From assembly GCF_032678705.1 (NCBI RefSeq), contig NZ_JAVTSS010000001.1, positions 1,488,001 through 1,552,000 of the forward strand: a DNA stretch of 64,000 nucleotides. The letters are read 5' to 3'. Position numbers and translations under genes: made by a program. Shown here one piece after another: positions 2,674 to 61,788 of this stretch. Position 1 is the stretch's first letter. Every line of letters begins with the position of its first letter. The notes beneath the pieces were generated by a model. The model was not told the origin of the DNA. It saw only the letters and a program-made list of their open reading frames with translations, and made no database searches. This DNA is from Pedobacter frigiditerrae. GTDB lineage: Bacteria; Bacteroidota; Bacteroidia; Sphingobacteriales; Sphingobacteriaceae.

Positions 2674-4823
2674 TGAATAAACTGTTTTCTTTATTTCTAA
2701 TATTCGCGTCTTTAAATTTATTAGCACAAGAAGTTACAACCATAAAAATATCTGGTAAAGACACAGAGTTGATATTTAAAGTTGGTAACAACAAAAGAAT
2801 TTATCAAAGTTATTTTGGTGTTAAACTGGCGGATGAAAGTTACTCAGACAAAAGATTTGAAGCATATCCCGCAGGAGGAATGGAATTTGAATTTGAGCCA
2901 GCCATACGTGCTGTTCATACAGATGGAAACCCTTCTTTAGAATTAAGGTATGTTAAACACAATGTTCAAACAAATGTTGATGGTTCTACTCAAACTGACA
3001 TATTTTTAAAAGACCAAATTTATAATACTGAAGTTGTTTTACATTACTTGGCTTATTCAGCACAAAATGTTTTTAAAAATTGGGTAAGCATTAAAAATGC
3101 AGAGAAGAAAGAAATTATTTTAACTAATTATGCTTCTTCGATGTTGCACTTTAACGCAAACAAATATTTTCTAACTCAATTTCATGGCGATTGGGCAAAG
3201 GAAATGAACATGCAGGAGCAGCAATTAACAAGTGGAATAAAAATTATCGACAGTAAGTTAGGAACGAGAGCTAATAAATATCAAGCACCTCACTTTTTCT
3301 TAACCATTGGTGATGAACCTTCAACAGAAGATACCGGAGAATTAATTGCTGGTACCTTGGCTTGGACTGGAAATTTTAAATTTTCTTTCGAACTTGATAA
3401 TAGAGATAATCTTCATATCGCAACTGGAATTAATAATTATGCTTCAGAGTATCATTTAAAACCAGCAGAAACTTTTACTACTCCAGCATTTATTTTTACT
3501 TATAGCAATAAGGGAAAAGGATTAGCAAGTAGAAATCTACATACTTGGGCTCGAAAATTTGCAGTTTTAGATGGTGAAAAAGGAAGATTCACCTTGTTAA
3601 ACAATTGGGAAGCAACAGGATTTAAATTTGACCAGCAAAAGATAGTTAACTTGTTCGATGGAGCTAAAAGCTTAGGCGTTGATTTGTTCTTATTAGATGA
3701 TGGATGGTTTGGAGAAAAATATCCTCGTGATAACGATAAAACGAGTTTAGGTGATTGGATGGTTGATAAAAAGAAATTGCCAGATGGCGTTTCTTATCTA
3801 GTAAAATCTGCAACTGAGAAGGGAATTAAATTTGGAATTTGGATTGAGCCTGAAATGGTTAGTCCGAAAAGTGAATTATATGAAAAACATCCAGATTGGG
3901 TATTAAAATTGCCAAACAGGGCAGAAAACTATCAACGTAATCAATTGGTTTTAGATTTAACGAATCCAAAAGTTCAAGATTATGTTTTTAAAATAGTAGA
4001 TGATTTATTTACAGAAAATCCAAACTTGGCTTACATTAAGTGGGATTGCAATAGAACCATCACAAATGGATATTCAAGTTATTTGGGTTATAATCAATCT
4101 CATTTATATATAGACTACACAAAAGCACTTTATTCAGTTTTAGAAAAGATTAGAAAGAAATACCCTCATGTACCAATCATGCTTTGTTCTGGTGGTGGCG
4201 GTAGAGTAGATTATGGCGCAATGAAGTATTTCACAGAGTTTTGGCCAAGTGATAATACCGATGGATTAGAAAGGGTGTTTATCCAATGGGGATTTTCTTA
4301 TTTCTTTCCTGCAAATACAATTGCTAATCATATTACTAGTTGGGGCAAGCAGTCTTTAAAATTCAGAACAGATGTAGCCATGATGGATAAATTAGGTTAT
4401 GATATTGATGTAGCTGAATTTACAAAAGACGAGTTATTGTTTAGTCAACAAGCAGTTGCTAATTACAAGCGTTTTAGCCCTACTGTTTATCAAGGTAATT
4501 TATATCGATTGGTTTCTCCTTATGAGAATAATAGAGCAGTTTTGATGTATAGCGACGAAGCGAAAAACAATGCTGTTTTATTTGCTTACAATTTGAGTTC
4601 TAGATACAGGGAGTTTTTTAATCCAGTTAAATTGCAAGGTTTAGACCCATTAAAAAAGTATAAAATTAAAGAGATAAATTTAATGCCTAATGTTAAATCT
4701 GCATTGGCAAGCAATGATAAAATTTACACAGGCGAATATTTAATGAATGTTGGTATTGATGTAAGTAAAACCAACTCAGAGCCACTTACAAGCGTGGTTT
4801 TAGAAATAACTACAACTAACTAA
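2673..4823 (+). CDS. Alpha-galactosidase, GH36 family
   Basis: A 716-residue secreted alpha-galactosidase (signal peptide ending near LLAQ). The N-terminal half is the beta-sandwich domain. The TIM barrel then carries the GH36 signatures: FLLDDGWFG (substrate binding), WIEPEMVSP, LVLDLTNP, YIKWDCNR with the nucleophile Asp458, and CSGGGGRVDYG followed by WPSDNTD (residues 525-530), which holds the acid/base Asp. Length is normal for the family. It removes terminal alpha-linked galactose. It sits between a glycerophosphodiesterase and a glycerol-phosphate-type transporter, so its substrate may be a galactosylated glycerol or glycerophosphate compound rather than a plant oligosaccharide; that part is inference. 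Confidence 0.93.
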   Translation: MNKLFSLFLIFASLNLLAQEVTTIKISGKDTELIFKVGNNKRIYQSYFGVKLADESYSDKRFEAYPAGGMEFEFEPAIRAVHTDGNPSLELRYVKHNVQTNVDGSTQTDIFLKDQIYNTEVVLHYLAYSAQNVFKNWVSIKNAEKKEIILTNYASSMLHFNANKYFLTQFHGDWAKEMNMQEQQLTSGIKIIDSKLGTRANKYQAPHFFLTIGDEPSTEDTGELIAGTLAWTGNFKFSFELDNRDNLHIATGINNYASEYHLKPAETFTTPAFIFTYSNKGKGLASRNLHTWARKFAVLDGEKGRFTLLNNWEATGFKFDQQKIVNLFDGAKSLGVDLFLLDDGWFGEKYPRDNDKTSLGDWMVDKKKLPDGVSYLVKSATEKGIKFGIWIEPEMVSPKSELYEKHPDWVLKLPNRAENYQRNQLVLDLTNPKVQDYVFKIVDDLFTENPNLAYIKWDCNRTITNGYSSYLGYNQSHLYIDYTKALYSVLEKIRKKYPHVPIMLCSGGGGRVDYGAMKYFTEFWPSDNTDGLERVFIQWGFSYFFPANTIANHITSWGKQSLKFRTDVAMMDKLGYDIDVAEFTKDELLFSQQAVANYKRFSPTVYQGNLYRLVSPYENNRAVLMYSDEAKNNAVLFAYNLSSRYREFFNPVKLQGLDPLKKYKIKEINLMPNVKSALASNDKIYTGEYLMNVGIDVSKTNSEPLTSVVLEITTTN

Positions 4824-4833
4824 ATATATATAA

Positions 4834-6189
4834 ATGGGACTTTTTCCACCACCGGCGGCGCATATACCTCGTTTGCCAGAAGATAAAATTAAATCTATCT
4901 ATAGTAAAGAACGTATCAAAGTATTTATCGGAATTTTCTTTGGCTATGCTGCTTATTATTTTGTCCGTAAGAATTTTTCTTTTGCTATTCCAGAACTGCA
5001 AAAACTAGGTTTTAGTAAAGGCGAATTAGGTATAGCTGCGTCAGCACTTTCCATAGCATACGGTTTTAGTAAATTTTTAATGGGGAATATATCCGATAGG
5101 AGTAACGCTAGGTATTTCCTTTCTATCGGTTTAATATTATCTGCCTTTACCATGATTTTTATGGGGGTTATCCCATTTGCTACTTCATCAATTGCAATTA
5201 TGTTTGTTTTGATGTTTATAAATGGTTGGTTCCAAGGAATGGGCTGGCCAGCTAGCGGTAGGGTAGTTGCACATTGGTATTCTATCAGAGAAAGAGGAAC
5301 GGCAATGTCTGTTTGGAACTTAGCGCACAACATAGGAGGTTTTTTAGTAGGACCATTAACAGTGCTAGGTTTTGAGCTTTTTGCTGATTACCATGGTATG
5401 CTATATTTTCCTGGATTAGTAGCAATTCTATTTGCAATATTAGCTTTAGTGTTAATTAGAGATACACCACAATCAGTTGGTTTACCCCCAATTGAAGAAT
5501 ACAATAATGATTATCCTAAAAGTTATAATGCTGCAACGCAAGAAAAAGAGTTTTCAGCCAAAGAAATATTCTTAGAATATGTTTTAAACAATAGACTACT
5601 TTGGTTTATAGCTATTGCAAATGCATTTATATATTTAGTTAGAAACGGTATCATTAATTGGGCACCAACATTTTTGCAAGAGGTTAAGCATTATACAAAA
5701 GGTGAAGCTGCTTGGGCTTCTGGCGGTTACGAATTAGCTGCAATACCAGGAACTTTACTTTGTGGAATAATTAGTGATAAAGTATTTAATGGAAGAAGAG
5801 CGCCAGTAACAATCATTTATATGGCAATGACACTAGTTGCTGTATTGGTTTATTGGAAAAGTCCTGATTCAAATCATTTAGTTCAAAATGCCTCACTTTG
5901 GGCGATTGGCTTTTTTATTTATGGTCCAGTAATGTTAATAGGTGTACAAGCTATTGATTTGGTGCCGAAAAAAGCAGCAGGTACAGCAGCTGGCCTAACG
6001 GGATTATTTGGTTATTTTATTGGAGATTTATTAGCAAATGCTGCCTTAGGAAGATTAGTTGATAAACAAGGTTGGGATGCGAGTTTTATGGTAATAGCCG
6101 CCTCATGTTTAGTTGCTATTTTCTTTACATCATTTACATGGAATAGGGAGAAGAAAAATTTAGCTAACCTTACTCCATTATCTCATTAA
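4834..6189 (+). CDS. glpT: Glycerol-3-phosphate transporter-like MFS protein (OPA family)
   Basis: A 451-residue, 12-helix major facilitator of the organophosphate:phosphate antiporter group. Seen motifs include YYFVRKNFSFAIPEL in helix 1, SDRSNAR in the loop between helices 2 and 3, and NGWFQGMGWPASGRVVAHW, all characteristic of GlpT/UhpT/UhpC. Glycerol 3-phosphate as substrate is the best guess, given the glycerophosphodiesterase two genes upstream, but hexose phosphate cannot be excluded from sequence alone. It begins 10 bases after the alpha-galactosidase stop and is clearly in the same operon. Confidence 0.82.
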   Translation: MGLFPPPAAHIPRLPEDKIKSIYSKERIKVFIGIFFGYAAYYFVRKNFSFAIPELQKLGFSKGELGIAASALSIAYGFSKFLMGNISDRSNARYFLSIGLILSAFTMIFMGVIPFATSSIAIMFVLMFINGWFQGMGWPASGRVVAHWYSIRERGTAMSVWNLAHNIGGFLVGPLTVLGFELFADYHGMLYFPGLVAILFAILALVLIRDTPQSVGLPPIEEYNNDYPKSYNAATQEKEFSAKEIFLEYVLNNRLLWFIAIANAFIYLVRNGIINWAPTFLQEVKHYTKGEAAWASGGYELAAIPGTLLCGIISDKVFNGRRAPVTIIYMAMTLVAVLVYWKSPDSNHLVQNASLWAIGFFIYGPVMLIGVQAIDLVPKKAAGTAAGLTGLFGYFIGDLLANAALGRLVDKQGWDASFMVIAASCLVAIFFTSFTWNREKKNLANLTPLSH

Positions 6190-16226: not shown

Positions 16227-16234
16227 TACCTTTG
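16227..16234 (+). promoter_or_regulatory. -7 promoter element of the riboswitch transcript
   Basis: TACCTTTG matches TAnnTTTG exactly and is placed to start the transcript about 5-8 bases later, just upstream of the cobalamin aptamer. Confidence 0.55.
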
Positions 16235-16240
16235 CGTCGC

Positions 16241-16442
16241 TTTTTGGTTTCCGATTAACATCGGAATTAAAAGGGAATACAGTGTAAATCTGTAACTGTC
16301 CCGCAGCTGTAAGCTCTATTAAAGTTTTTCAAATCTAAAGTCACTTTTCGCCAACTGGCGGATGGGAAGACAGGAAAACCAGAGTAAGTCAGAAGACCTG
16401 CCTAAAAGTTTAATATTTCATAGCTTTCGGGGATTGAAGCTA
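16241..16442 (+). ncRNA. Cobalamin (B12) riboswitch
   Basis: The leader has the conserved core AAGGGAATACAGTG and CTGTAACTGTCCCGCAGCTG (16271-16310) and the B12 box AGTCAGAAGACCTGCC (16387-16402), in the right order and spacing for the aptamer. A further hairpin TAGCTT/AAGCTA (16421-16442) follows as a likely expression-platform element. Adenosyl- or other cobalamin binding should switch off the downstream BtuB receptor. There is no U-tract terminator before the gene, so control of translation initiation is more likely than termination. Confidence 0.93.
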
Positions 16443-56073: not shown

Positions 56074-57282
56074 ATGACCACAAGAAAATCAGCCCTAGGC
56101 TTTATATTTATTACCATATTAATTGATTGTATTGGTTTTGGAATCATAATTCCGGTATTACCTAATTTAATTAAAGAACTTTCGGGTAAATCTCTAGCTC
56201 AAGCATCTGAGATTGGCGGTTTGCTCTTATTGGCTTATGCAATTTCTCAATATCTTTTCTCGCCTGTCGTTGGTGGTTTAAGTGATAAATATGGAAGGCG
56301 AATTATTTTACTAATCTCATTATTTGGTTTAGGTGTTGATTACATTTTTCTCTCGTTCGCACAAACGATTGGTTTATTATTTCTGGGAAGAATTATTGCT
56401 GGAATTACAGGTGCAAGTTTTACCACGGCGATGGCTTACATTGCCGATATTAGTACACCAGAAAAGAAAGCTCAAAATTTTGGATTAGTTGGAGTTGCCT
56501 TTGGTATTGGTTTTATTATTGGGCCGTTAATTGGGTCATTCGCAAGCCATTTTGGTATTAGAGCACCATTTATGGTGGCGGCTGCTTTATCTTTAATCAA
56601 TTGGTTATACGGTTATTTCATTCTTCCTGAATCATTGGCTAAAGAAAAACGTAGAGAATTTTCATGGAAAAGAGCAAACCCAATTGGCTCATTAATTAGT
56701 GCATCAAAATATCCAGCAATTATCGGGCTTATAACTGCTTTACTTTTACTTTATATTGCCAGTCATTCCGTACAATCAAACTGGGGTTTCTATGTTATGG
56801 AAAAATTTAAATGGGATCCTGCAATGATAGGTTATTCATTAAGTATAGTTGGTCTATTTGTAGCAATAGTACAAGGTGGACTTATAAGGATTGTAATTCC
56901 AAAAATTGGAGCGAAAAATGCTATAATGCTAGGATTTAGCTTATACATTATCGGATTTCTTTGCTTTGCATTTGCTCCAAATGGCGTAATGATGATGATT
57001 TTTATCCTTCCATATTGTTTAGCTGGTATTGGAAATCCTGCCATGCAAACCATTATATCAAATCAAGTACCGGATAATGCGCAAGGAGAAATACAGGGGA
57101 TTATTACAAGTATGCAAAGTTTAGGGGCTATATTTGGGCCCATAACTATGGCTTTTATATTCGCTTATTTTATCAATAAAAATAATAGTATTTATTTTCC
57201 AGGAGCACCATTTATCTTTAGTGCGATAATAACACTAATTGCCTTACTAATAGCAGCAAGGGCCTTAAGAAAGCACCATTAA
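56074..57282 (+). CDS. Tet-type MFS drug efflux protein
   Basis: A 402-residue, 12-helix transporter of the TCR/Tet branch of the DHA1 family. LIDCIGFGIIIPVLPNLIKE in helix 1, SDKYGRRIILL between helices 2 and 3, and GITGASFTTAMAYIADI in helix 4 (motif C-like) are typical. It is a chromosomal relative of TetA, not recognisably a known resistance gene. It overlaps the convergent phoH gene by four bases. Confidence 0.87.
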   Translation: MTTRKSALGFIFITILIDCIGFGIIIPVLPNLIKELSGKSLAQASEIGGLLLLAYAISQYLFSPVVGGLSDKYGRRIILLISLFGLGVDYIFLSFAQTIGLLFLGRIIAGITGASFTTAMAYIADISTPEKKAQNFGLVGVAFGIGFIIGPLIGSFASHFGIRAPFMVAAALSLINWLYGYFILPESLAKEKRREFSWKRANPIGSLISASKYPAIIGLITALLLLYIASHSVQSNWGFYVMEKFKWDPAMIGYSLSIVGLFVAIVQGGLIRIVIPKIGAKNAIMLGFSLYIIGFLCFAFAPNGVMMMIFILPYCLAGIGNPAMQTIISNQVPDNAQGEIQGIITSMQSLGAIFGPITMAFIFAYFINKNNSIYFPGAPFIFSAIITLIALLIAARALRKHH

Positions 57283-58631
57283 AGTAATTCTATTGCCAAG
57301 TTTGCTAGCTCACTCCTCTCCCCTTTTTGTAGGGTTATGTGCGCATATAGCGGATGTTTTTTTGCATTTTCTATTAAATAGGATAATCCGTTACTCTCAG
57401 AATCTAAATATGGTGTATCAATTTGATAAATATCTCCAGTAAATACAATTTTTGTATGTTCACCAGCTCTTGAGATAATGGTTTTAACCTCATGTGGTGT
57501 TAAATTTTGCGCCTCATCAACAATGAAGAAAATTTTAGTAATTGTTCTTCCACGGATAAAAGCAAGTGGGGCAATTTGAATTTTTTCTGTACGGATTAAT
57601 TCATCAATCTTGAAAAGCATTTTCTCATCCCCAGCAAATTGTTCTCTTATAAACTTTAAATTATCCCATATTGGTGCCATATAAGGGTCTATCTTGGCCT
57701 TAACATCACCTGGTAAAAAACCGATATCCTTGTTACTTAGCGGAACAATTGGTCTGGTTATGTAGATTTGCCTGAAATCTTTTCTTTGCTCTAAAGCTGT
57801 TGCTAAGGCCAATAAAGTTTTACCAGTGCCAGCATTTCCTTGTATACTAACTAATTTAATATCGGGGTTTAGTAAGGCATCAATGGCAAAAGATTGTTCC
57901 GCATTGCGAGGATAAATATTAAAGGCAGATTCTTGAAAAATAAATCTTAAGTTTTTAGCAACCTTATCATAAAATGCAATTGCACTTTTCTTCTTGTTTT
58001 TTAAGACATAAAAATGATTCGAATCTGTATAGGGTAACATTAAGGACGAAGCATCAACAATTCCGCTATTTTTTAGCTCATCAATTATTTCGTTAGAAAA
58101 ATCTGATATTTCCGTCTTACCAGTATAAAGTTCATCAGCATTTTTAATTTTACCAGTTTCATAATCCTCTGCATACAAGTCTAAAGCTTTAGCTTTTAAA
58201 CGCAAACAAATATCTTTTGAAACCAATATAACCTTACGTTTTGGATTTTCTTCTTTTAAAGCTAGCGCAGCATTTAAAATGCGGTTATCAAATTTCCCAT
58301 CACCAAATAGCTTTTCTGCATTAATTTTTTTTGGATGTTCATCTAAAACAACCTTAAATTTTCCCAGACTATTTTTCTTTAGGTTAAACCACTTGTTAAT
58401 CAAATGATTTTTAGATGCCTTATCTATCAATCTTATGAAATTCCTAGCTTCAAAATTTCTTGTATCGTTACCACTTTTAAAATTATCTAATTCTTCTAGT
58501 ACTAATATCGGAACAGCAACATCATGTTCTTGGAAATTATTTACAGCATCATGGTCATAGAGAATAACTGATGTATCTAAAACAAATATCTTTTTCGAGG
58601 AATTTTTATCTTGAAGTGCAGCCTTTGACAT
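57279..58631 (-). CDS. phoH: PhoH-family ATPase with PIN domain
   Basis: A 450-residue protein. The N-terminal PIN domain (residues 14-160) starts FVLDTSVILYDHDAV and has VPILVLEELDNFK. The PhoH ATPase has Walker A SIQGNAGTGKTLLA near residue 262-275 and Walker B FFIVDEAQNLTPHEV. Such PhoH2-type proteins combine RNA cleavage and helicase activity. It lies just downstream of the candidate structured RNA on the same strand, but a terminator separates them. Confidence 0.94.
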   Translation of the reverse strand: MSKAALQDKNSSKKIFVLDTSVILYDHDAVNNFQEHDVAVPILVLEELDNFKSGNDTRNFEARNFIRLIDKASKNHLINKWFNLKKNSLGKFKVVLDEHPKKINAEKLFGDGKFDNRILNAALALKEENPKRKVILVSKDICLRLKAKALDLYAEDYETGKIKNADELYTGKTEISDFSNEIIDELKNSGIVDASSLMLPYTDSNHFYVLKNKKKSAIAFYDKVAKNLRFIFQESAFNIYPRNAEQSFAIDALLNPDIKLVSIQGNAGTGKTLLALATALEQRKDFRQIYITRPIVPLSNKDIGFLPGDVKAKIDPYMAPIWDNLKFIREQFAGDEKMLFKIDELIRTEKIQIAPLAFIRGRTITKIFFIVDEAQNLTPHEVKTIISRAGEHTKIVFTGDIYQIDTPYLDSESNGLSYLIENAKKHPLYAHITLQKGERSELANLAIELL

Positions 58632-58691: not shown

Positions 58692-58739
58692 TAAAAAGAA
58701 AAACGGAGACCCTCTTCTTTCGATTTGGTTCTCCGTTTT
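58692..58739 (-). terminator. Intrinsic terminator of the minus-strand RNA
   Basis: The arms AAAACGGAGA (58700-58709 on plus) and TCTCCGTTTT (58730-58739) form a hairpin. The U-tract is longer on the minus strand (GTTTTTCTTTTT), and no plus-strand gene precedes it, so it most likely ends a minus-strand transcript before phoH. Confidence 0.75.
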
Positions 58740-59311
58740 AACCTTATCCTTAACCGTAGTCAAAAATATGGCATCAATTGAATATACTTAACCTAATTCG
58801 TGGTTCTGTTCATCTTGCGAATTCCTGAACTCGTTTATAACCTATTATTTATATTGCTTTACTCCGTAAAATGCGGCAATTAATAATAGTGCCCGATATT
58901 GCTTTTCAAACTAATTACTGGTTTTACAACCGTTAAGTCTTTCAATTATCCGTTCTTGCGAGTGATTATTTGATAACTTAATTTTTTACATGCTAACCGT
59001 CTTGCGACTTCTTAATGTAAAACGATTTTGCATTTTGCAACGCTTGTCGAATTTGTATCAAATTAATTATAGGTCTTAAACCTGGTAGTTATTAGAAACT
59101 TATCTTTCCCTTTCGGGTGATTGAGTTTTAAATTACTTTAATCTTTTACATGCTATCCGTCTTGCGACTTCTTAATGTAAACCGATTAACATTTTGCAAT
59201 GTTTCTCGAATTTGATGTTAAAGCTTTGAATACTCCCAAAAAGTTTAGCCTTGCGACTTCATTTTTGTTTTGGATTATTCTATCAGACTGTCAAAGTACT
59301 TCGTTATTGAT
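58700..59311 (-). ncRNA. Candidate large structured RNA with repeated GNRA hairpins
   Basis: No reading frame fits this 1-kb gap (58632-59631). On the minus strand it holds several hairpins capped by GNRA tetraloops: GTC-GCAA-GAC at 58999-59008 and 59159-59168, GCAA-capped stems at 59030-59043 and 59189-59202, CCC-GAAA-GGG at 59108-59117 and GGTT-GTAA-AACC at 58920-58931. A related GTC-GCAA-GGC unit is at 59248-59257. Two of the units form a 60-base module repeated 160 bases apart. One stem changed from ACATT/AATGT to GCGTT/AATGC, keeping pairing. A promoter (59317-59347) and a terminator bound it. I do not recognise the class. Confidence 0.55.
58984..59202 (-). repeat. Duplicated hairpin module inside the candidate RNA
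   Basis: Copies at 58984-59043 and 59144-59202 share TTTACAT...ATGTAAA outer arms, an identical GTC-GCAA-GAC inner hairpin and flanking internal-loop bases, then a second GCAA-capped stem. Sequence in loops is kept while stem bases vary in step. Confidence 0.7.
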
Positions 59312-59316
59312 ATCAT

Positions 59317-59347
59317 CTAAATTAGTGTCTAAAGCAATACTTGTCAA
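59317..59347 (-). promoter_or_regulatory. Candidate minus-strand promoter of the structured RNA
   Basis: On the minus strand TTGACA (59347-59342) is followed after 17 bases by TAATTTAG (59324-59317), one base from the -7 consensus TAnnTTTG. Transcription would start near 59310 and run into the hairpin region. Confidence 0.35.
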
Positions 59348-59619
59348 GTAAAATCGATTTTTCTTTTTAACAAGTTATGAACCTTAATAATTAGGTTATC
59401 AACATATTAAATAATCAAAAAACATAACTATTAGCGAGAATGTATTGTTTTACCATTATATTTTTTGATGTTATTAACAATTGCTTCAAATTGTCTTGTT
59501 CACATTTTAGCTAAAAAAAGAGTAAAATAGAAAATGATATTCTGCTTGATTTTCTCTTTTATGCAAGAATGTTTGTTTTTAAAGTATGATTTTCGAAGCT
59601 TTTTAAGACCTAAATAATG

Positions 59620-59631: not shown

Positions 59632-61788
59632 ATGTTCAATCAACCAATTAGAAATATACAAGACTTTTTGCTGAGTACCTATTTTGCAGATGGCTTACGT
59701 ATTACAATTGGTGTACTTTGCCCCTCTTTGCTTTTAGCCCAATTTGGTATGTTGCAATACGGAATGACACTTTCCTTAGGTGCGTTATGTATTAGTGTGG
59801 TAGATTCTCCAGGCCCTATTGTGCATCGCAGAAATGCAATGTTAATTACAACTGTGTTAATTTCTGTCATCTCAATTATTGTAGGTTTAACAAACAAGAG
59901 CATCATTGTAACTGGAACGCTATTGGTTATTTGCAGTTTCATATTTTCAATGCTCTCTATTTATGGAGATAGAGCTGCTTCCATAGGTATTTCTGTTTTA
60001 CTCATCATGGTTTTGAGCATTGATGACATTAGGCCATGGAGAGAAGTTTTATTTTATGCCTTATTGATTTTTGTTGGCAGTATTTGGTATACGCTACTAA
60101 GTTATTTCGTTTACAGGCTTCGTCCATACAGGTTAGTACAGCAAATATTAAGTGATTCTATTTTACAAGTTAGTGAGTTTTTGAGAGCAAAAGCAAAGTT
60201 CTATCATGAAAATGCTGATTATGAAAAGAATTACGCAGAGCTATTACAATTGCAGGTACATGTTCATGAAAAGCAGGATGAAGTTAGAGAGGTTTTATTT
60301 AGGACAAGGGAAATAGTAAGAGAATCTACACCAGAAGGAAGATTTTTGTTGCTTGTATTTGTAGACATGGTCGATTTATTTGAACAAGTAATGTCTACCT
60401 ATTACAATTACAAACAACTACACGAGCAGTTCGATTCCATTGGTATTTTACCCCAGTATGAAGATGTAATTAATAAAATTGCAACGTCGCTGGATGAAAT
60501 TTCATTTGCATTGAAAAGTGGTGGAACACCAACATTAGCTCATAACTTGGTAGATGATGTAGCAAAGCTAAAGGAAGAAATTACTAAGCTAGAAGTTAAT
60601 AGTGATGAAAAATATACTACACTTGGCTTAATAGCTTTAAAGAACATTGAGGTAAATATTGAGAATATCGTTTCGAGAGTAAAAACTATTAATGGTTATT
60701 TCAACAAAAAGGAAAAGAAGAATTTAAAGAGCAGAGACATTGATGTAGATAAATTTGTAACCAGGCAAAGCACAGATGTTAAATTACTGCTTGATAACTT
60801 AACCTTTAGCTCTTCTACATTTAGACACTCACTTCGTGTAGCAATAGTAATGTTGATTGGTTTTGTAGTTGCCAAAAGTTTAAATTTTGAACATAGCTAT
60901 TGGATACTCTTAACTATTCTGGTTATTTCTAAGCCTGGATTTAGTTTAACAAAAGAACGAAATATCCAACGTTTAATAGGGACTATTGTTGGTGCATTTA
61001 TTGGAATGGGCATTTTAATGTACATTAATGATAAAAATACACTATTTGTAATCCTGTTAATCTGCATGATTGGCAGTTATAGTTTTCAGCGTAAAAATTA
61101 TGTTGTCAGCGTGCTGTTCATGACACCTTACATTTTGGTGCTTTTTGATTTCTTGGGAATGGGAAGCATGTCTATTGCTAGAGAAAGGATTTATGACACG
61201 TTGATTGGTTCAGGAATTGCATTGCTGGCAAGTTATTCTTTATTCCCTAATTGGGAACACGAAAAGCTAAAACAAGCAATGATGGATATCATTAAAGCAA
61301 ATTCCAATTATTTTAAGGAAGTAACTTTACTTTATTTTGAGCAAACACATAACTTAACTAATTACAAATTAGCTAGAAAATCTGTTTATGTGAGCACATC
61401 AAATCTTGCTTCTTTATTTCAACGGATGTTCTCTGAACCTAAGAGTAAACAAATGCACATTAAAGAATTACATCAGTTTACAGTGTTAAATCATCTGCTA
61501 TCATCTTATATAGCAACATTGTCATTGTATAAAAAAGAGCATCAATTTGTTCATAGTAATTTTGAAGAATTAAAACCAGTTTCTGAAAATACGTTGTATT
61601 TGTTAAATCTATCTTCTGAAAATTTATTAATTCATCAAGAAAATATTAGTAACGTTCCTTTAATTCGTAGAAAAAATATTGCAGAACCAAATATTGAGGA
61701 TGAAAATATGATTATTGCAGAACAGTTTGATTCAATTCAAAAAGTAGCTTATGATATTTTTAAATTAGCAGAGAAACTTAAAATTTAA
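59632..61788 (+). CDS. FUSC-family (YccS/YhfK-like) inner-membrane protein
   Basis: A 718-residue protein with two hydrophobic blocks. The first (residues 20-165) has about six helices with GMTLSLGALCISVVDSPGP; the second (about 395-540) has SFRHSLRVAIVMLIGFVVA-like helices and YWILLTILVISKPGFSLTKE, the FUSC signature, with RLIGTIVGAFIG. Between them and at the C-terminus are long helical cytoplasmic parts. The family is linked to export of aromatic acids or unknown small molecules. It stands alone downstream of the structured-RNA region. Confidence 0.9.
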   Translation: MFNQPIRNIQDFLLSTYFADGLRITIGVLCPSLLLAQFGMLQYGMTLSLGALCISVVDSPGPIVHRRNAMLITTVLISVISIIVGLTNKSIIVTGTLLVICSFIFSMLSIYGDRAASIGISVLLIMVLSIDDIRPWREVLFYALLIFVGSIWYTLLSYFVYRLRPYRLVQQILSDSILQVSEFLRAKAKFYHENADYEKNYAELLQLQVHVHEKQDEVREVLFRTREIVRESTPEGRFLLLVFVDMVDLFEQVMSTYYNYKQLHEQFDSIGILPQYEDVINKIATSLDEISFALKSGGTPTLAHNLVDDVAKLKEEITKLEVNSDEKYTTLGLIALKNIEVNIENIVSRVKTINGYFNKKEKKNLKSRDIDVDKFVTRQSTDVKLLLDNLTFSSSTFRHSLRVAIVMLIGFVVAKSLNFEHSYWILLTILVISKPGFSLTKERNIQRLIGTIVGAFIGMGILMYINDKNTLFVILLICMIGSYSFQRKNYVVSVLFMTPYILVLFDFLGMGSMSIARERIYDTLIGSGIALLASYSLFPNWEHEKLKQAMMDIIKANSNYFKEVTLLYFEQTHNLTNYKLARKSVYVSTSNLASLFQRMFSEPKSKQMHIKELHQFTVLNHLLSSYIATLSLYKKEHQFVHSNFEELKPVSENTLYLLNLSSENLLIHQENISNVPLIRRKNIAEPNIEDENMIIAEQFDSIQKVAYDIFKLAEKLKI

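Follow-up and report, generated by a model that had tools for sequence, protein, structure and literature searches.

A Bacteroidia-wide family of large structured RNA genes with recurrent phoH2 linkage and upstream DnaA-box-like sites

INTRODUCTION

Does the spacer between phoH2 and a divergent FUSC/YccS-like gene in Pedobacter frigiditerrae (positions 58692-59347 of the 64,000-nt stretch of DNA analysed here, referred to as the window) contain a gene of its own and, if so, what might the product of this gene do? An initial annotation had proposed that the spacer specifies an undescribed large structured RNA with GNRA-capped hairpins. To our knowledge, few classes of large structured RNAs have been recognized in bacteria, and most of these still lack a function. 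Little is known of the physiological role of PhoH2, a conserved enzyme.

RESULTS AND DISCUSSION

A stand-alone RNA gene in the phoH2-FUSC spacer

The minus strand at 59324-58696 almost certainly harbours a stand-alone gene for a non-coding structured RNA, a member of a real and hitherto undescribed RNA gene family, its transcription being inferred. At the level of sequence, the gene boundaries, conservation, base pairing, non-coding character, lack of an Rfam match, duplication of the whole unit and linkage to phoH2 are established. The features of the locus are listed in Table 1.

Table 1. Features of the RNA locus and of its flanking genes, in window coordinates
Feature	Position	Strand	Description
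phoH2 (PIN_4 + PhoH, 450 aa)	57279-58631	minus	Proposed partner, encoded on the RNA strand; start 72 nt past the terminator hairpin; Pfam
RNA, about 610-615 nt	58696-59313	minus	5' and 3' ends inferred from promoter and terminator, respectively; ends and structure conserved
Terminator hairpin	58704-58735	minus	CGGAGAACC-AAA-UC-GAAA-GA-AGA-GGGUCUCCG; conserved internal loop, GNRA cap; U-run (T-rich DNA) to 58696
Conserved hairpin with C-UACG-G cap	58741-58772	minus	UNCG/YNMG-type loop at 58758-58755; tree-aware test
P1, 3' strand AUUGAUG	58772-58778	minus	Covariation with the 5' strand of P1
P2, 3' strand GUUAAGU	58786-58792	minus	RNAalifold in five clades
Duplicated module, second copy	58978-59055	minus	GCGUU-GCAA-AAUGC hairpin, then GUC-GCAA-GAC hairpin
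Duplicated module, first copy	59138-59214	minus	ACAUU-GCAA-AAUGU hairpin, then GUC-GCAA-GAC hairpin
P2, 5' strand ACUUUGAC	59290-59297	minus	Within the near-invariant 5' block CGAAGUACUUUGACAGUCUGA; boxA-like
P1, 5' strand UAUCAAU	59306-59312	minus	Pairs with 58778-58772; covaries class-wide
Promoter	59317-59347	minus	TTGACA at 59347-59342, 17-nt gap, TAATTTAG at 59324-59317; Bacteroidota TTG/TAnnTTtG type
Oriented DnaA-box-like array upstream of the promoter	59363-59479	minus	TGTTAATAA at 59479-59471, TGTTGATAA at 59404-59396
DnaA-box-like array, remaining sites	59363-59383	minus	GGTTCATAA at 59383-59375, TTGTTAAAAAG at 59373-59363
FUSC/YccS-like membrane protein	59632-61788	plus	Divergently oriented gene next to the RNA in Pedobacter and some related genera; Pfam

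Consistent with the earlier claim that the gap has no coding potential, no minus-strand ORF of at least 40 aa lies between the promoter and the terminator, and the sole ORF of at least 40 aa in the RNA region encodes 50 aa on the plus strand (59199-59351). The promoter and the intrinsic terminator, which had been described as bounding about 600 nt, were both located, with coordinates and sequence in agreement; the promoter is kept in aligned homologues and the terminator hairpin (CGGAGAACCAAAUCGAAAGAAGAGGGUCUCCG) is present in every one of them. A generic promoter/terminator scan listed neither.

Eight hairpins with stems of at least three pairs are capped by GNRA loops on the minus strand, compared with a mean of 1.45 in shuffled sequences, and none of 500 shuffles reached eight; the plus strand has a single one. 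These counts bear out the previous description of at least six such hairpins on the minus strand and of an unremarkable plus strand. Folding energy is below that of shuffles on both strands (z of -4.3 and -4.1), so that energy alone cannot pick the strand, and its z-score was dropped as a strand test. The strand was chosen on the basis of the GNRA count, promoter, terminator and covariation.

The module reported to occur twice, with a stem changed from ACATT/AATGT to GCGTT/AATGC, was found as claimed. Its copies are 160 nt apart and match at 94% over 58978-59027 and 59138-59187 and at 78% over 59020-59055 and 59179-59214. This duplication accounts for the long form of the window RNA: most species of the genus have an RNA of 366-378 nt, whereas that of the window has about 610-615 nt and the longest member reaches 702 nt. 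The duplicated module is missing from most relatives and is an accessory of a few species, not part of the core.

Base pairing of the 5' and 3' ends

Separate folding of five clades produced one and the same layout, with helices P1 and P2 connecting the 5' end with the 3' end, a set of hairpins in the interior and two 3' hairpins after them. Covariation in homologues, which had been set as one of the checks on the initial annotation, is statistically supported in the 3' domain and in P1. In an alignment of 89 sequences, 93.3% of cells at the 25 base pairs of the 3' domain are paired, as against 79.1% when shuffled and at most 50.4% when slid, and 20 of the 25 pairs display compensatory changes on both sides. 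Because this alignment was fitted to the covariance model, it leans towards the proposed structure; an unfitted alignment of 36 sequences has double changes in 14 of 20 pairs. In a tree-aware test, which involved comparison with 200 alignments simulated along the tree, the top seven pairs among all columns are pairs of the proposed structure. Two pairs reach E<0.05 when all pairs are considered, and 11 of 25 do so when the test is restricted to the structure. The UACG-capped hairpin has a compensatory change in each of its 13 pairs.

The two strands of P1 were each anchored independently of the partner strand. This helix is 86.5% paired, compared with 81.2% in shuffles (maximum of 84.4%), and the observed value was reached in 0 of 2000 shuffles. 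Depending on the lineage, the last position of P1 is G-C, A-U or U-A, and the change is complete in individual cases such as CACCAAAC/GUUUGGUG. Within the closest Pedobacter clade, the tree-aware test over all pairs had no power and returned no significant pair. Since the middle of the RNA consequently rests on RNAalifold alone, it is less certain than the ends.

In sequence, the 5' strand of P2 is reminiscent of boxA, an antitermination element (window positions 59303-59283; also position 2368 of locus L115 and the 5' block of loci L163-L171). In genus g4, the 5' block of the RNA itself reads GTTCTTTGA, and the P. frigiditerrae rRNA operon likewise contains GTTCTTTGA, downstream of the 16S gene. 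Given that the boxA-like bases pair in P2, the reading of the 5' block as an rRNA-type boxA is kept as a remark only.

The pairing pattern bears on the possibility that the transcript is a base-pairing regulatory RNA or an mRNA sponge using exposed loops as seeds. A free-standing gene with a terminator, several loops and tandem paralogues such as those of many sRNA families would all suit this role. However, the most conserved parts (P1, P2 and the 3' hairpins) are paired and leave no exposed seed, and the size far exceeds that of usual sRNAs; we consider such a role improbable.

Distribution in Bacteroidia

BLAST identified relatives in 112 of the 145 genomes of the genus, with about a quarter lacking a match. 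Among named genomes, the 5' block TATCAANNACGAAGTACTTTGA retrieves about 60 records of Pedobacter, Nubsella, Daejeonella and related taxa, plus a few chance matches. Homologues are conserved at their ends, namely, in the promoter and 5' block and in the 3' region comprising the UACG-capped hairpin and the terminator hairpin. With covariance models of the 3' domain, the RNA was detected in 196 of 400 genomes of the family, in 173 of 300 genomes of the order (9 of 17 genera) and in 28 of 395 genomes of the class, where it is found in several other families. A phylum-level draw of 296 genomes gave 11 matches, all of them inside the class. The genome searches were limited in extent. The models represent the 3' domain alone and diverged members may escape them, so that absence from the rest of the class is not shown; furthermore, related loci are not independent, and locus counts therefore overstate the evidence.

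The existence of a family of putative RNAs of about 300 to 700 bases across the class Bacteroidia is well supported. The scope initially suggested was the phoH-FUSC spacer of Sphingobacteriaceae, and homologues are indeed present there, but the family is wider than that, being class-wide and not restricted to this spacer. Distant members, from families f5, f10, f15, f24 and f46, keep this arrangement: a promoter is accompanied by a 5' strand, in most cases CAAGUGAGRGAUAAAAGG, and by a 3' strand that matches it, together with a hairpin of the UACG or GNRA type and a terminator hairpin, the latter usually bearing a GNRA cap. GNRA, UUCG and CUUG tetraloops are abundant in these members. Members occur in hundreds of sequenced genomes, and culturable Pedobacter and relatives account for many of these.

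Several genomes contain two or three copies of the RNA; the inspected copies each have their own promoter and terminator, and most have their own DnaA-box-like sites (see below). In locus L176 of genus g14 (positions 3340-5438), two copies flank a protein-coding stretch and are near-identical over most of their length, pointing to a recent duplication. Typical Sphingobacteriaceae-type copies are also found in records labelled Flavihumibacter soli R14 (L090) and Flavobacteriaceae bacterium PS02338 (L101), the names of which may be wrong. One class-level match (L240), located where an ORF ends, resembles a plain terminator and was dropped. Matches in L242 (family f3), L255 (family f54) and L256 have no confirming 5' end.

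Comparison with known RNA classes

Searches against Rfam 15 yielded no match to the RNA at the gathering score and nothing credible in the region up to E=10, and no credible match was obtained up to E=1 in 15 homologous loci (twelve family or class members and three further ones). Neither in the window nor in the homologous loci did OLE, GOLLD, ROOL, HEARO or group II introns match, and the proposal that the RNA belongs to no known Rfam class stands. Elsewhere in the window, Rfam 15 identifies a Cobalamin riboswitch (16228-16419, plus strand, 107 bits) and a Flavo-1 RNA (RF01705; 30040-30133, plus strand, 48 bits). Searches limited to open-access papers retrieved no description of the RNA. Pedo-repair RNA (RF01715) and Flavo-1 (RF01705) are candidate structured RNAs of Pedobacter/Bacteroidetes (PMC2864571) and in this respect are similar, but both are in Rfam and neither matches the RNA locus. 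Phage or plasmid origin was rejected: there was no match in phage or plasmid records, and pattern matches in viral contigs lack the RNA 3' end.

Wide spread in one class and a helix closing the 5' and 3' ends would also be expected of a diverged housekeeping RNA, such as RNase P RNA, tmRNA or 6S RNA. Yet RNase P RNA (RF00010) lies elsewhere in 11 of the 12 genomes tested, including that of P. frigiditerrae, and ARAGORN finds no tmRNA in the window, which leaves this explanation scarcely credible. The 6S-Flavo model (RF01685) had no match in any genome, controls included, and the search is thus uninformative on 6S RNA.

The nearest look-alikes are OLE, ROOL and GOLLD, whose long non-coding RNA genes are rich in capped hairpins, vary in their inner segments and have no known function. 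All three assemble into oligomers made of RNA alone, held by A-minor and kissing contacts (PMC12286853). The RNA described here might be a self-assembling molecule of the same sort, acting as a homo-oligomer or scaffold, with phoH2 adjacency being incidental. Its size (300-700 nt), own promoter and terminator, many hairpins capped by GNRA, UNCG or CUUG and variable middle between conserved 5' and 3' parts agree with this possibility, as does the lack of a nearby phoH2 in 26 of 99 loci. However, there is no covariance match to the OLE, ROOL or GOLLD families, and the repeated phoH2 adjacency in two arrangements would be left unexplained. Unlike these RNAs, the present family combines a Bacteroidia host and no Rfam match with a 5'-3' closing helix, a UACG hairpin and a GNRA-capped terminator, and its gene is linked to phoH2 and DnaA-box-like sites. 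Overall, we regard self-assembly of this kind as unlikely, though by no means negligible.

Linkage to phoH2

PF13638 and PF02562 are found in the neighbour proteins from the window and from families f1 and f24, indicating a PIN domain fused to a PhoH domain, and a PIN_4 + PhoH protein was identified in every phoH2 case examined with Pfam. The NCBIfam PhoH2 equivalog matches it over the full length, under the cut-off (255 vs 680 bits), and a defence library produced only weak partial helicase-type matches to it. The gene is located within 1.5 kb of the RNA in 73 of 99 loci. In 57 it follows the RNA on the same strand, often 44-190 nt past the terminator; the remaining 16, which belong to genus g4 of the same family and to the distant families f24 and f13, have it upstream on the other strand. 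In the other 26 loci, including all those of f10, f46, f15 and f5, no phoH2 was found within 1.5 kb in the available sequence, and PhoH2 therefore need not be the only partner of the RNA. By our estimate, chance adjacency would be rare, given roughly one phoH2 per genome of several megabases. The other neighbours vary between lineages. The FUSC gene is not beside the RNA in distant families; it is a frequent neighbour only, and a functional link is probably absent.

The same-strand loci with short gaps could be taken to mean that the RNA is a cis-acting phoH2 leader, a giant attenuator that switches phoH2 expression by means of a terminator located 44-190 nt ahead of the start of this gene. 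However, the 16 divergent phoH2 genes cannot share a transcript with the RNA, 26 loci have no phoH2 and duplicated RNA copies possess their own promoters and terminators. A leader role as the sole function is disfavoured, and we deem the attenuator decidedly improbable. The recurrence of the same partner in two arrangements suggests a functional tie between the RNA and PhoH2 rather than a shared transcript. Such a partnership is an inference, to which we assign slightly less than an even chance.

In type III toxin-antitoxin systems (ToxIN, CptIN, TenpIN), an antitoxin RNA consisting of short tandem repeats is encoded upstream of an RNase with the ToxN fold. The RNA locus has a common layout with these systems, namely, promoter, structured RNA, terminator, short gap and same-strand RNase gene. 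Nevertheless, its RNase is a PIN-PhoH protein rather than one of the ToxN fold, the RNase gene is in many cases divergent from the RNA or located far away and, instead of a short tandem-repeat array, there is one 160-nt duplication, absent in most members. A terminator placed as in type III systems, between the RNA and a same-strand RNase gene, is present in 57 of 99 loci but not in the 16 divergent and 26 unlinked ones. The resemblance is one of layout, not of membership.

Mycobacterial PhoH2 is an RNase and RNA helicase, and its small partner protein is encoded upstream and co-expressed (PMC7390352). The RNA locus is similar to phoAT-phoH2 in that the partner is encoded just upstream of PhoH2 (PMC7390352); however, the mycobacterial partner is a small protein, whereas here it would be an RNA, as inferred from position only.

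DnaA-box-like sites upstream of the promoter

Class-wide, the motif TGT[GT]NATAA occurs 117 times between -220 and -55 of 68 units, compared with 2.9 expected occurrences, and the perfect DnaA box TGTGGATAA is found 21 times in the same interval, with 0.1 expected. Nearly all upstream sites have one orientation, the reverse orientation being near background. In 200 kb of the P. frigiditerrae genome, DnaA-box-like sites are few, and no two of them on one strand lie within 60 nt of each other. Sites of the same type cluster directly upstream of dnaA in several Pedobacter, but not in every genome examined. Because unlinked and duplicated RNA copies also carry them, the boxes belong to the RNA unit. 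The promoter thus meets the description of one with a DnaA-box cluster, the boxes being inferred from sequence match only, with no binding data; whether DnaA is an upstream regulator of the RNA appears to us evenly balanced. These upstream sites and the phoH2 linkage in two orientations are new relative to the initial annotation.

Possible mechanism

The RNA would be transcribed from a housekeeping-type Bacteroidota promoter and end at its own intrinsic terminator. P1 and P2 are predicted to pair the 5' with the 3' parts, closing a domain of GNRA- and UNCG-capped hairpins, with the UACG and terminator hairpins following. The folded RNA may act in trans as a partner of PhoH2, determining the activity or targets of this enzyme as a decoy, cofactor or inhibitor, and this step is inferred. 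Where phoH2 is 44-190 nt downstream, the dosage of PhoH2 could in addition depend on terminator read-through, in the manner of type III toxin-antitoxin loci. The DnaA-box-like array, again by inference, might time RNA synthesis, tying it to DnaA (or a protein of its specificity) or to replication. In its full form, this proposal holds that a new Bacteroidia-wide large RNA forms a ribonucleoprotein with PhoH2 and that its synthesis is set by DnaA, with replication state controlling an RNA-degrading helicase. The full proposal is tentative and rather unlikely to be correct in all its parts, while the narrower reading, an RNA gene plus an inferred functional partnership with PhoH2, falls just short of an even prospect. 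With PhoH2 as a candidate partner and DnaA as a candidate regulator, the functions of both the orphan RNA and PhoH2 would be directly testable in one strain.

Chromosomal position of the locus

In complete Pedobacter genomes with a single dnaA, the RNA locus is ~0.35-0.42 of the chromosome away from dnaA; at this distance it is not oriC, and identity with oriC was rejected. This position bears on the idea that the locus is a DNA element first, serving in DnaA titration or replication, with the transcript being part of it. The oriented DnaA-box-like array, present class-wide, would be in line with such an element, but the transcript itself is under structural selection and the locus is not oriC, so that we see only a faint prospect for this explanation.

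GC skew changes from positive to negative near the window (P. frigiditerrae C1, around 1.4-1.6 Mb), which suggests that in this genome the RNA locus is closer to the terminus of replication than to the origin. Two full-length DnaA genes are present in the complete Pedobacter genomes G012, G036, G069, G076, G126 and G135, and in G012, G036, G069 and G076 one DnaA gene copy lies 60-165 kb from the RNA locus.
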